Assembly (NCBI RefSeq): GCF_001623405.1
Contig: NZ_LUHG01000065.1
Coordinates: 1 to 64,000, forward strand
Length of the DNA stretch: 64,000 nt
Direction: 5' to 3'
Source: Hydrotalea flava
Lineage (GTDB): Bacteria > Bacteroidota > Bacteroidia > Chitinophagales > Chitinophagaceae
Both the position numbers and the translations under genes were made by a program. Under the pieces are notes generated by a model. It saw only the letters and a program-made list of their open reading frames with translations, was not told where the DNA came from and did not search any database. Shown here one piece after another: positions 32,470-34,845 of the stretch (position 1 is the stretch's first letter; the number at the start of each line of letters is the position of its first letter).

Positions 32470-33519
32470 TTACCATTTTAGTAATGCACTTGCCCAGGTA
32501 AATCCGCTGCCAAAAGCAGCCAAACAAACAAGATTACCTGTTTTTATTTTGCCTTGCTCCCAAGCTTCGCAAAGGGCTATGGGTATAGATGCCGCTGTTG
32601 TGTTGCCATAATGCTGAATATTATTGTATACTTTTTCATCGGGCAATCCCAATTGCTGTTGTACAAACTGCGCTATGCGTAAATTGGCCTGATGGGGGAT
32701 TAACATATCCAAATCGGCCGGCTGATAATCATTGGCCTGCAGGGCCTCTTTAATTACTTCCGGAAATTTTACCACTGCTTTTTTAAAAACGGCGGGGCCA
32801 TCCATGAACGGAAAATTTTCTGCATTGTCGATCATAGCATGACTCATAAACATATCTGCAATGGGTGCATCATTAAAGGTTGCATAATTTTTAGTGCCCC
32901 AATGGTTGGCATGGGTTCCGGGATTGTACATGGCTAAAATTTCAGCCGATTCACCATCACTATGCAAGTGTGTACTTAAAATTCCACGATTTGTATCTTC
33001 ACTTGGCTGCAGCACCACGGCACCAGCACCATCACCAAAAATAACACTTACATTACGACCACGGGTGCTAAAATCTAAACCAAAGCTGTGTTTTTCAGAA
33101 CCTACCACCAATATATTTTTATACATGCCGGTCTTTATAAACTGGTCTGCTACACTTAATGCATACACAAATCCACTGCATTGATTTCTGACATCCAAAG
33201 CACCCACTTCTTTCATTTTTAAAGCACGTTGCAATAAAACACCGCAACCGGGAAAATAATAATCGGGTGAAAGGGTGGCAAAAACGATAAAATCAATGTC
33301 CTGAGGCGTAATTCCGGCACGCTCAATGGCTATTTTAGCGGCTTCTACACCCATTGTAGTTGTGGTTTCATTGGTACGGTGTGCATATCTACGCTCTTTT
33401 ATTCCTGTTCTTTCCTGTATCCAGGCATCACTGGTATCCATGTATTGCAGCAAATCATTGTTCGTTATCACTTGTTCAGGAGCATACATGCCAATACCAG
33501 CAATTGCAGATCGTATCAT
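32470..33519 (-). CDS. fabH: 3-oxoacyl-ACP synthase III (KAS III)
   Basis: Initiates fatty-acid synthesis by condensing an acyl-CoA with malonyl-ACP. The start chosen is ATG 33517-33519 (MIRSAIAGIGMYAPEQVITN), giving 349 residues. The catalytic triad is Cys114 in RNQCSGFVYA, the His in IPHQANLRI and the Asn in HYGNTTAASIP. The family signature DTSDAWIQERTGIKERRYA near the N-terminus is intact. A few inserted residues around LAMYNPGTHANHWGTKN make it slightly longer than E. coli FabH (317), as in many Bacteroidota homologues; a KAS III-like enzyme of a special pathway is possible. Its promoter shares the 33.5-kb intergenic region with the divergent asd leader. Confidence 0.9.
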   Translation of the reverse strand: MIRSAIAGIGMYAPEQVITNNDLLQYMDTSDAWIQERTGIKERRYAHRTNETTTTMGVEAAKIAIERAGITPQDIDFIVFATLSPDYYFPGCGVLLQRALKMKEVGALDVRNQCSGFVYALSVADQFIKTGMYKNILVVGSEKHSFGLDFSTRGRNVSVIFGDGAGAVVLQPSEDTNRGILSTHLHSDGESAEILAMYNPGTHANHWGTKNYATFNDAPIADMFMSHAMIDNAENFPFMDGPAVFKKAVVKFPEVIKEALQANDYQPADLDMLIPHQANLRIAQFVQQQLGLPDEKVYNNIQHYGNTTAASIPIALCEAWEQGKIKTGNLVCLAAFGSGFTWASALLKW

Positions 33520-33556
33520 AATTCTCAATTTAGAAGTGAAGGTAAAGGAAAATAAT

Positions 33557-33587
33557 TTTGACAGAATGAATTTTGAGTCTATTTTCG
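33557..33587 (+). promoter_or_regulatory. Candidate promoter of the asd leader transcript
   Basis: TTTG (33557-33560), 19 bases, then TATTTTCG (33580-33587), one base off TAnnTTTG with ideal spacing. The predicted start of transcription, near 33593-33596, falls at or just before the leader-peptide ATG, so the mRNA would be nearly leaderless. Confidence 0.5.
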
Positions 33588-33595
33588 CACCCGCA

Positions 33596-33640
33596 ATGAA
33601 TAAAGTAATCTATACCAAACGTACCAAGAAACCTGTTTAG
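33596..33640 (+). CDS. Putative Thr/Lys leader peptide of asd
   Basis: ATG to TAG encodes 14 residues, MNKVIYTKRTKKPV, with four Lys and two Thr codons clustered as T-K-R-T-K-K. It lies between a promoter-like element and a terminator, about 150 bases before asd, whose product makes the common precursor of Thr, Lys and Met. The codons ACC AAG AAA CCT (33623-33634) sit in a segment that can pair with the downstream antiterminator arm. This fits a leader whose translation senses charged Thr/Lys tRNA. Translation is not proven, and no ribosome binding site is visible. Confidence 0.5.
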   Translation: MNKVIYTKRTKKPV

Positions 33641-33708
33641 CGGGAAGGTACTTTGTTTGTGTATAGGCAACATAAATTAAAACCTTCCCTTCAACGGAAG
33701 GTTTTTTT
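33623..33708 (+). promoter_or_regulatory. Candidate transcription attenuator upstream of asd
   Basis: Four segments can form alternative hairpins. Segment 1, ACCAAGAAACCT (33623-33634), overlaps the last leader codons. Segment 2, GGGAAGGT (33642-33649), can pair with part of segment 1 (ACCT/AGGT plus AAG/CTT). Segment 2 can instead pair perfectly over 8 bp with segment 3, ACCTTCCC (33682-33689). Segment 3 also pairs with segment 4 as the terminator AAAACCTTCC / GGAAGGTTTT (33679-33688, 33696-33705), with T residues running to 33708. No + strand gene other than the leader peptide precedes this terminator. The layout matches ribosome-mediated attenuation; mechanism inferred. Confidence 0.55.
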
Positions 33709-33787
33709 ATTGTTACACTTCATTCAATAAACATAACACAAAGCGTTAGAGCAAGCAAACATCATTCATTCACAAAAAAAACAAACA

Positions 33788-34777
33788 ATGAAAGTAGCCG
33801 TAGTTGGAGCTACCGGTTTAGTAGGCTCAAAAATGTTACAAGTTTTGGAAGAAAGAAACTTCCCCGTTACTGAATTAATTCCCGTTGCCTCTGAAAAATC
33901 TGTTGGCAAACAGGTTATTTTTAAAGGGAACCCACACACTGTAGTTGGTATGGAGCAGGGCATTGCAGCCAAACCGGCTGTTGCTATCTTTTCTGCAGGC
34001 GGTGGCACTTCATTAGAATGGGCACCCAAATTTGCAGCAGCAGGCATTAAGGTAATTGACAATTCCAGTGCCTGGCGTATGGACCCTTCTAAAAAACTAG
34101 TAGTGCCTGAAGTAAATGCCAACGTGTTAACCAAAGATGATTTTATTATTGCAAATCCCAATTGTTCTACCATTCAAATGGTAGTTGCTTTGCAACCCCT
34201 TCACAAAGCCTATACCATACAACGTATTGTGGTAAGTACATACCAAAGTGTTACCGGCACAGGCAAAAAAGCGGTTGACCAGTTAATGAATGAAAGAAAA
34301 GGTATTCAGGGAGAAATGGCTTATAAATACCCCATCGACTTAAATGTAATTCCTCAAATTGATGTGTTTTTAGACAATGGTTACACCAAAGAAGAAATGA
34401 AAATGGTGAATGAAACCAAAAAAATTATGCAGGATGACAGTATTCGCGTAACGGCAACCACCGTTCGTATTCCGGTAGTGGGCGGGCATAGCGAAAGTGT
34501 AAATATTGAATTTGAAAAAGAATTTGATGTAGCGGAAGTAATAAACTTGTTGAACAAAGCACCCGGAGTAATTGTACAACAGGATGATGCTGCTCAATTG
34601 TACCCCATGCCACTTTGGGCGCATGAAAAAGATGAAGTTTTTGTTGGCCGCATTCGCAGAGATGAAACACAGCCCAAAACTTTGAATATGTGGGTAGTGA
34701 GCGATAACCTGCGCAAAGGTGCTGCTACCAATGCCGTTCAAATTGCCGAATACTTAATGGCTAATCATTTGCTGTAG
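33788..34777 (+). CDS. asd: Aspartate-semialdehyde dehydrogenase
   Basis: Reduces aspartyl-4-phosphate to aspartate-4-semialdehyde with NADPH, the branch point to lysine/diaminopimelate, threonine and methionine. The 329-residue protein has the Rossmann motif VAVVGATGLVGSKM (3-16), the catalytic Cys126 in ANPNCSTIQM and the substrate-binding RIPVVGGHSESVNIEF with the conserved His. The ending RKGAATNAVQIAEYL is also typical. It is preceded by a putative Thr/Lys attenuator and followed by its own terminator, so it appears to be transcribed alone, with end-product control at the leader (inference). Confidence 0.97.
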   Translation: MKVAVVGATGLVGSKMLQVLEERNFPVTELIPVASEKSVGKQVIFKGNPHTVVGMEQGIAAKPAVAIFSAGGGTSLEWAPKFAAAGIKVIDNSSAWRMDPSKKLVVPEVNANVLTKDDFIIANPNCSTIQMVVALQPLHKAYTIQRIVVSTYQSVTGTGKKAVDQLMNERKGIQGEMAYKYPIDLNVIPQIDVFLDNGYTKEEMKMVNETKKIMQDDSIRVTATTVRIPVVGGHSESVNIEFEKEFDVAEVINLLNKAPGVIVQQDDAAQLYPMPLWAHEKDEVFVGRIRRDETQPKTLNMWVVSDNLRKGAATNAVQIAEYLMANHLL

Positions 34778-34798: not shown

Positions 34799-34845
34799 TA
34801 CACCTTCCTTAAAGTTTTAAACCGGCGGGAAGGTGTAATTTTTTT
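34799..34845 (+). terminator. Terminator downstream of asd
   Basis: TACACCTTCC (34799-34808) pairs with GGAAGGTGTA (34828-34837), a 10-bp stem with a 19-base loop, followed by a T-run to 34845. The next gene starts only 16 bases later on the same strand. The core ACCTTCC/GGAAGGT is the same as in the leader terminator. Confidence 0.75.

Follow-up and report, generated by a model that had tools for sequence, protein, structure and literature searches.

We propose that asd of Hydrotalea flava, a gene on the common route to lysine and threonine, lies behind a ribosome-mediated transcription attenuator that would read charged Lys-tRNA and Thr-tRNA. Judged from sequence comparisons and a folding model, the probability of this reading is roughly 0.88. 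Very probably, a shortage of these two amino acids switches asd on through the leader, and the same element is present in many relatives, in some of them also before dapA.

The Leader Region of asd

The window, that is, the whole 64,000-nt stretch of DNA analysed, carries the leader and asd on the + strand, as follows.

33557–33560, + strand: −33 promoter element TTTG, read directly and seen with the leaders of relatives.
33580–33587, + strand: −7 promoter element TATTTTCG, of the TAnnTTTG type, read directly, after a 19-nt spacer following TTTG.
33592–33595, + strand: predicted 5′ UTR of 4 nt, from the position of the −7 box.
33596–33640, + strand: leader peptide frame MNKVIYTKRTKKPV and stop codon, 14 codons, ATG at 33596–33598, read directly, with codons kept in relatives.
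33610–33625, + strand: basal half of arm 1, overlapping the control codons and pairing with 33647–33666 (fold, co-variation).
33614–33631, + strand: control codons T-K-R-T-K-K, from register-wise counts of residues and codons across 114 asd leaders and from the masking boundary.
33632–33636, + strand: apical half of arm 1, at the end of the leader frame, pairing with 33640–33644 (fold, co-variation).
33642–33649, + strand: arm 2, GGGAAGGT, the 5′ side of the antiterminator, masked in the model by a ribosome at the stop codon (2:3 pair counts, masking model).
33655–33666, + strand: arm 1′, GTTTGTGTATAG, the outer 3′ side of the basal 1:2 stem (fold).
33682–33689, + strand: arm 3, ACCTTCCC, partner of arm 2 or arm 4 (co-variation, pair counts, fold).
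33696–33702, + strand: arm 4, GGAAGGT, the 3′ side of the terminator, whose predicted stem is 33679–33688 with 33696–33705 (fold, pair counts).
33702–33708, + strand: T-run of the intrinsic terminator, read directly.
33788–34777, + strand: asd, aspartate-semialdehyde dehydrogenase, the gene proposed to be regulated (NCBIfam TIGR01296, NF011456).

The identity of asd is given by TIGR01296 at 421 bits (cut-off 324) and NF011456 at 440 bits (cut-off 223). Its ATG lies 79 nt past the leader region 33557–33708, which ends with the T-run, in agreement with the distance of about 80 bases in the original prediction. The fabH-like ORF upstream of the leader is on the − strand, divergent from asd, and, as had been claimed, no other + strand gene stands before the terminator. 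A second hairpin, ACACCTTCC...GGAAGGTGT, with its own T-run, is found directly 3′ of asd at 34800–34845 of the window. It is likely the asd terminator, and its arms are similar to those of the attenuator.

The near-consensus promoter TTTG-N19-TATTTTCG and the 14-codon frame with a T-K-R-T-K-K run, both named in the original prediction, can be read in the window. The promoter match by itself is no better than chance. A sigma-70 scan found 8 sites where 7.0 were expected, and the pattern TTTG-N17..21-TAnnTTYG-N5..9-ATG is not enriched in the genome, with 21 matches, one of them the pheA leader, against 33 for the reversed pattern. The weight of the promoter rests on its conservation in relatives, described below. 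In Flavobacterium, the −7 consensus TAnnTTTG spans −12 to −5, according to the available text of PMC9723704. With the box of the asd leader taken in the same way, transcription would start at 33592, leaving a UTR of 4 nt; tRNA genes having the same type of promoter did not fix the start site.

The RNA of the leader folds better than shuffled sequence, at −32.2 kcal/mol against −19.0 ± 3.1 (z −4.2; 0 of 200 shuffles as good). The same holds for each of its parts: the 1:2 hairpin, 33610–33666 (z −3.5; 0 of 200), the 2:3 antiterminator, 33642–33689 (z −4.7; 0 of 200), and the 3:4 terminator, 33679–33705 (z −3.5; 2 of 200). Three mutually exclusive pairings had been predicted, and 1:2, 2:3, and 3:4 with its T-run are all found, but 1:2 is longer than described. 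That is, the pairing of the leader end with GGGAAGGT (GGG; 33632–33636 with 33640–33644) exists as the apical tip of a longer stem. The base of that stem is a gapped helix between 33647–33666 and 33610–33625, the latter reaching from the end of codon 5 through codon 10.

The proposed mechanism is as follows. With transcription starting, as predicted, about 4 nt 5′ of the leader's start codon, the ribosome would load almost at the very end of the RNA and trail RNA polymerase closely. With ample lysine and threonine, the ribosome would get to the stop codon and cover arm 2, so that the 3:4 terminator forms and transcription ends before asd. With lysine or threonine scarce, the ribosome would stall on the K-x-x-K-x-x-K-K and Thr codons, opening 1:2 and leaving arm 2 free. 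Arm 2 would then pair with arm 3, blocking the terminator and allowing asd to be transcribed.

Distribution of the Element

An asd gene is present in 56 of 59 genomes, that of H. flava included. Thirty of these loci were fetched and, together with the best 80 of the named contigs, make a set of 110 loci, of which 48 carry the leader element. Named carriers include Sediminibacterium roseum (L035), Limnovirga soli (L043), Niastella yeongjuensis (L046), and Niabella ginsengisoli (L047). No convincing model match was obtained in the other 62, where two − strand matches had E-values of 0.02 and 0.05. The element is absent from loci titled Pedobacter, Mucilaginibacter, Dyadobacter, Flavobacterium, and Algoriphagus, and some asd loci of the Chitinophagaceae are also without it (e.g., L056, Chitinophaga sp. 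CF118). The contigs of three loci, L053, L075, and L077, stop shortly 5′ of asd and could not have shown it.

A covariance model, R1, was built from the 48 element-bearing loci. R1 matches 211 of 294 genomes of the family at an E-value of 0.01, in 83 of 101 genera, and 83 genomes have no match at that threshold. At E ≤ 1e-4, 180 of the 294 genomes match; the E-values of the other 31 of the 211 matches exceed 1e-4. Seven matches scoring below 50 bits were inspected, and one is a hisG leader while six have no recognisable leader. It follows that many of the 31 weak family matches may be plain terminators. At the level of the order, R1 matches 60 of 298 genomes at 1e-4, all except one in the family itself; at the level of the phylum, it matches 30 of 296 at 1e-3, and the eight strong matches (E ≤ 1e-7) are all in the family. 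The H. flava genome contains a single match.

Codons and Reading Frame

From 135 sequences, 125 distinct leaders were kept, 114 before asd and 11 before dapA. Their common core is K-H-T-K-R-T-K-K or a variant of it, and the peptide is variable beyond the core. A −7 box is recognisable in 115 of the 125 leaders and not in the other 10. An exact TTTG lies 17–21 nt 5′ of the box in 107 of these 115. All 131 of the 131 ATGs found 3–12 nt past a −7 box share the frame of the core; the leaders were picked by an in-frame ORF, and out-of-frame ATGs would still have counted. Three leaders (L224, L244, and L292) have the box and no in-frame ATG 3–12 nt downstream of it. The predicted 5′ UTR is 0–6 nt long in 112 of the 115 boxed leaders. 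Thus, the nearly leaderless start of the peptide, which the original prediction took to be unusual, is the rule here. It stands against low backgrounds elsewhere in the Bacteroidota: 5′ UTRs shorter than 10 nt are put at about 3.7% in the part of the source available for B. thetaiotaomicron, and leaderless mRNAs at 5.5% in F. psychrophilum in the available text of PMC9723704.

At least three Lys codons are found in all 114 asd leaders. Lys occupies core position 4 in 103 of them, with the codon free at its third base (AAG 54, AAA 49). At position 6, Thr is found in 65, Ile in 27, Asn in 10, and Ser in 6 of the 114; the Thr codons are ACA in 22, ACC in 21, ACG in 15, and ACT in the remainder. 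The Lys doublet strongly favours AAG followed by AAA (AAG in 94 of 114, then AAA in 80 of 114), a preference for which the peptide alone gives no explanation. As read from these codons, lysine is the more constant signal, and threonine, sometimes isoleucine, is the second input. The original reading of the region as a Thr/Lys attenuator is supported by the conserved frame, codons, and arms, with the refinement that lysine is the steadier of the two inputs and Thr/Ile the second.

This codon record bears on the proposal that the leader senses threonine, or threonine and isoleucine, and nothing else, as E. coli thrL does, the Lys codons being a by-product of A-rich sequence. Such an attenuator would agree with the Thr or Ile that each of the 114 asd cores contains, and with the Thr/Ile-rich leaders found before thrA in the same genomes. 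It would not explain why Lys is never represented by fewer than three codons before asd, nor why Lys enrichment is specific to the frame: in the 125 leaders, the Lys share is 24.6% in frame 0 and 7.6% and 10.1% in the other two frames. Moreover, the seven thrA leaders examined contain one Lys in total, in the preferred reading. With the dapA and lysA leaders considered below, we regard threonine-only control as quite unlikely.

Co-Variation of the Arms

Pairing of the arms was examined by swapping arms between sequences, using 37 sequences out of the 48, all with likeness below 75%, in a test that ignores phylogeny. Swapping weakens 2:3 (z −6.2), 3:4 (z −10.7), 1b:2 (z −3.5), and 1a:1′ (z −8.6), values uncorrected for phylogeny, and five control arm pairs in the same 37 sequences show no significant co-variation. 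The test was repeated with 50 of 87 further rows from outside the model alignment, again less than 75% alike. The result, likewise uncorrected for phylogeny, is much the same, with z-values of −5.5 for 2:3, −10.6 for 3:4, −3.2 for 1b:2, and −9.7 for 1a:1′; four control pairs are null or opposite. Fitting of the 50-row alignment took in 1:2 and 3:4 but left out 2:3, which is absent from the model. Pair counts agree. For 2:3, two-sided changes occur in 5 of 8 pairs, and 91.2% of 377 cells are paired; for 1:2 plus 3:4, they occur in 23 of 29 pairs, with 80.7% of cells paired, and in the terminator helix (helix 4, 3:4), 96.3% of cells are paired. These counts are above both shuffled and slid controls. 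The short frame, its Thr/Lys codons, and its arms, whose alignment across the Chitinophagaceae had been suggested along with the original prediction, are therefore all conserved in that family.

The core is conserved past the amino acids of the pathway: position 2 is His in 92 and position 5 is Arg in 64 of the 114 asd leaders, and neither is a pathway product. This would be expected if the peptide acted as such, either by arresting the ribosome as a nascent chain or as a small protein acting in trans, rather than as a counter of codons. The two codons lie in the basal 1:2 stem, though, and co-vary with its opposite strand. At position 5 (columns 40–42 with 79–81), 25 cells are changed on both sides, and at position 2 (columns 28–30 with 90–92), 7 cells. 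Therefore, the conservation of His and Arg can be explained by RNA pairing. The variability of the peptide outside the core also speaks against a peptide acting as such, as does the occurrence elsewhere of the same layout with runs of His, Phe/Tyr, Thr/Ile, or Trp, and we hold an arrest peptide or trans-acting protein to be very unlikely.

For a codon-reading attenuator, the position of the ribosome should decide between the alternative pairings, and this was modelled. Transcripts of the 48 loci, ending before arm 4, were folded with a 30-nt ribosome footprint kept unpaired at each codon in turn. In the model, a stall on any of the eight core codons leaves at least four expected antiterminator pairs in 47 of the 48 loci; the exception, L050, falls to two within the core. 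With the ribosome at the stop codon, one antiterminator pair at most is expected in 44 of 48 loci, and 4 of 48 keep more. In 41 of the 48 loci, the predicted boundary between the two states comes 2–3 codons after the Lys doublet ends, which suggests that the doublet is about the last useful stall site. In the absence of a ribosome, equilibrium folding mostly prefers 2:3 over 1:2, two or fewer 2:3 pairs being expected in just 5 of 48 loci. The 1:2 stem is conserved, yet equilibrium folding alone gives no support for its role as a protector, which, given the preference for 2:3, would have to be kinetic.

Leaders before dapA and lysA

A second strong R1 match is found before dapA, at the lysine branch point, in seven genomes and in G027, G062, G146, and G281. 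One of these dapA genes was confirmed by NCBIfam, and four of the loci were also found by a search for dapA. The 11 dapA leaders represent 5 genera; one more dapA leader, L327, is outside these counts. In the dapA leaders, position 6 is Val in 7, Ser in 3, and Ala in 1, and Thr is found there in 0 of 11, against 65 of 114 before asd (Fisher p 2e-4, a value that ignores relatedness and draws on only 5 genera). Two of the 11, L300 and L301, are out of register, and both are without any Thr. All 11 keep at least four Lys. At position 3, the codon for which sits inside the 1:2 stem, the dapA leaders (Thr in 8 of 11) do not differ significantly from the asd leaders (Thr in 97 of 114). The loss of the position-6 Thr with retention of Lys is the reverse of what a threonine-only attenuator would predict.

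The distribution of the dapA element is limited. Among 26 genomes searched, it is found in only 4 of the 25 dapA loci read (G005, G027, G032, and G062). The dapA of H. flava is without it and sits behind an accA-like end. The sole order-level match outside the family (G356, L326:309–423) is a leader, MMIYKHKSSKRFLPKW, before lysA, identified by TIGR01048 at 401 bits. Although a single case, this leader is Lys-rich and contains no Thr, again contrary to threonine-only control.

A conserved, co-varying hairpin ahead of a terminator is also what a riboswitch for lysine or another metabolite would present, with the short frame being incidental. The lysine riboswitch, RF00168, has no match in the window, and none was found in 79 genomes of the family by Infernal with stricter filters, in a search in which 4 of 14 control genomes were positive. 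No riboswitch of Rfam matches in the window, nor in L012, L031, L201, or L326 at E ≤ 0.01. Conservation of the frame, of its start codon, and of Lys codons free at the third base speaks against a ligand-binding RNA, and we judge a riboswitch to be extremely unlikely.

Returning to ribosome-mediated attenuation, we are inclined to propose, as rather more probable than its converse, that the leaders before asd, dapA, and the outgroup lysA form a family serving as a lysine sensor of Bacteroidota that lack the lysine riboswitch. In this proposal, Thr codons would be tuned by pathway branch: they would be kept before asd, a gene feeding both lysine and threonine, and the leaders of dapA and lysA, genes that feed lysine, would have lost some or all of them. 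The family would be part of a wider class of attenuators (trp, his, phe, thr, ilv, and lys) with one RNA layout, often starting within a few bases of the 5′ end.

Sister Leaders in the Bacteroidota

Control loci for thrA, hisG, and pheA were drawn from 8 genomes searched, 7 loci for each gene. His-run leader peptides precede hisG in 7 of 7 loci (L132–L138; H. flava, L136), for example, MNLNNVYMHHHTLPTL and MKINIHIHHHHFISNG, and the asd model also picks up a hisG leader (L304, E 3e-4). Phe/Tyr-rich leaders precede pheA in 7 of 7 loci (L154–L160); that of H. flava is as follows.

G000:C31 near 221600–221780, − strand: pheA leader of the H. flava genome (L116/L154), Phe/Tyr-rich frame MKQITANTGFCFFFYYYFIQ.

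The start codons of 13 of the 14 his and phe leaders lie about 10 nt or less from a −7-like box. Before thrA, which encodes a fused aspartokinase-homoserine dehydrogenase, Thr/Ile-rich leaders are found in 7 of 7 loci (L161–L167; H. flava, MINSIIYIFSTTTTTTL). Several thrA leader starts are ambiguous, and L162 may use GTG. Inspection by eye of the 330 nt upstream of 8 hom genes shows no leader of the asd type. A match to the SAM riboswitch, RF00162, lies before the hom of H. flava (L152:874–981, 93.7 bits), and another is found in L150 (71.6 bits).

Fifteen weak matches of the asd model at the order and phylum levels were also fetched, and one representative per kind was run against NCBIfam. 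They comprise four trpE-like Trp leaders (L312, L313, L318, and L323), whose trpE representative scored under its NCBIfam family cut-off, four thrA-like Thr/Ile leaders (L314, L315, L319, and L324), Ile-rich leaders before ilvD (L316 and L317) and ilvA (L321), the lysA leader, and three regions (L320, L322, and L325) without a nameable gene behind. L320 and L322 contain short frames, MKFNICNMFKVAQDNS and MKFNICNTFKVAQDNSCGSLIA, respectively, with a terminator. The four Trp leaders, which come from another family of the class, score 47–57 bits with the asd model. The Trp leader of L312 is Bacteroid-trp in Rfam (74.5 bits), and the trpE type is the only one matched among the leaders given to Rfam, a scan that covered neither the ilv leaders nor the thrA leaders from outside the family. 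Since the asd model also finds Trp, Thr/Ile, and Ile leaders, it appears to recognise a layout common to a wider class in the Bacteroidota, of which Bacteroid-trp is one member.

Comparison with Known Systems

In the sequences scanned, no Rfam family accounts for the element. The whole window has no match, and the best hit of the leader region at E ≤ 1 is Phe_leader, at 24.5 bits (gathering score 55), with Thr_leader, RF00506, at 19.1 bits, also under its gathering score of 55. Bacteroid-trp, RF01692 (gathering score 49 bits), is not found in the window and is also missing from the matches of 33400–33800 at E ≤ 1. The asd/dapA element is under every Rfam gathering score in the window, L201, and L301, and L012, L031, L201, and L326 gave no match at E ≤ 0.01. 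In the open-licence literature, no description of a lysine leader-peptide attenuator or of an asd/dapA element was among the matches listed, and no paper bringing together Chitinophaga, leader peptide, and attenuation was found. Lysine is not touched on in the available portions of PMC4833913, PMC2965389, and PMC1183508. Thus, while the mechanism itself is known, a lysine-specific leader family is undescribed as far as searches of the open-licence literature reached. The survey by Vitreschak et al. (2004, FEMS Microbiol Lett) is said to mention attenuators in the Bacteroidetes/Chlorobi group.

Control of lysine genes by RNA is known from riboswitches and also from T-boxes, and a lysine leader peptide would fill a gap. 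The asd, dapA, and lysA series would be a natural experiment in how codons are tuned, in which one kind of RNA retains or loses its Thr codons according to pathway branch. The family would also let transcription–translation coupling be tested in bacteria that hardly use Shine-Dalgarno sequences.

Ribosome-mediated attenuators of amino-acid operons include the E. coli trp, his, and thr leaders. The asd element shares with these a short frame rich in codons for the product, exclusive 1:2, 2:3, and 3:4 pairings, a terminator before a biosynthetic gene, and a stop codon beside or just past arm 2. It differs in its Bacteroidota host, in having lysine as the main signal, and in the position of its ATG: with the RNA predicted to begin about 4 nt earlier, there is no space for a Shine-Dalgarno sequence.

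Closer in phylogeny is Bacteroid-trp (RF01692; Weinberg et al. 2010, PMC2864571, as far as the available text goes); both are peptide-leader RNAs of the Bacteroidota, and Bacteroid-trp has Trp codons and trpE in place of Lys codons and asd. For Flavobacterium psychrophilum, the available text of PMC9723704 describes 5′ elements before pheA and hisG with “strong clues” of leader-peptide attenuation. These too are from the Bacteroidota, and neither asd nor lysine is named in that portion.

Closer in its codons is SEP5 of Sinorhizobium meliloti, a proposed Thr/Lys leader whose frame, with six codons for Thr and three for Lys, lies in the 5′ UTR of a gene there called aspartate dehydrogenase (PMC10117765, in the portion available). 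SEP5 and the asd leader are alike in having a short Thr/Lys frame in a 5′ UTR; SEP5 is proteobacterial, and neither arms nor co-variation are given for it in the available text. Finally, leaderless leader peptides are reported in the accessible parts of the sources for S. meliloti trpL (PMC10117765) and C. glutamicum ilvBNC (PMC11857589). In these, as is predicted for the asd leader, the start codon is at or beside the first base of the RNA, in other phyla and for other amino acids.
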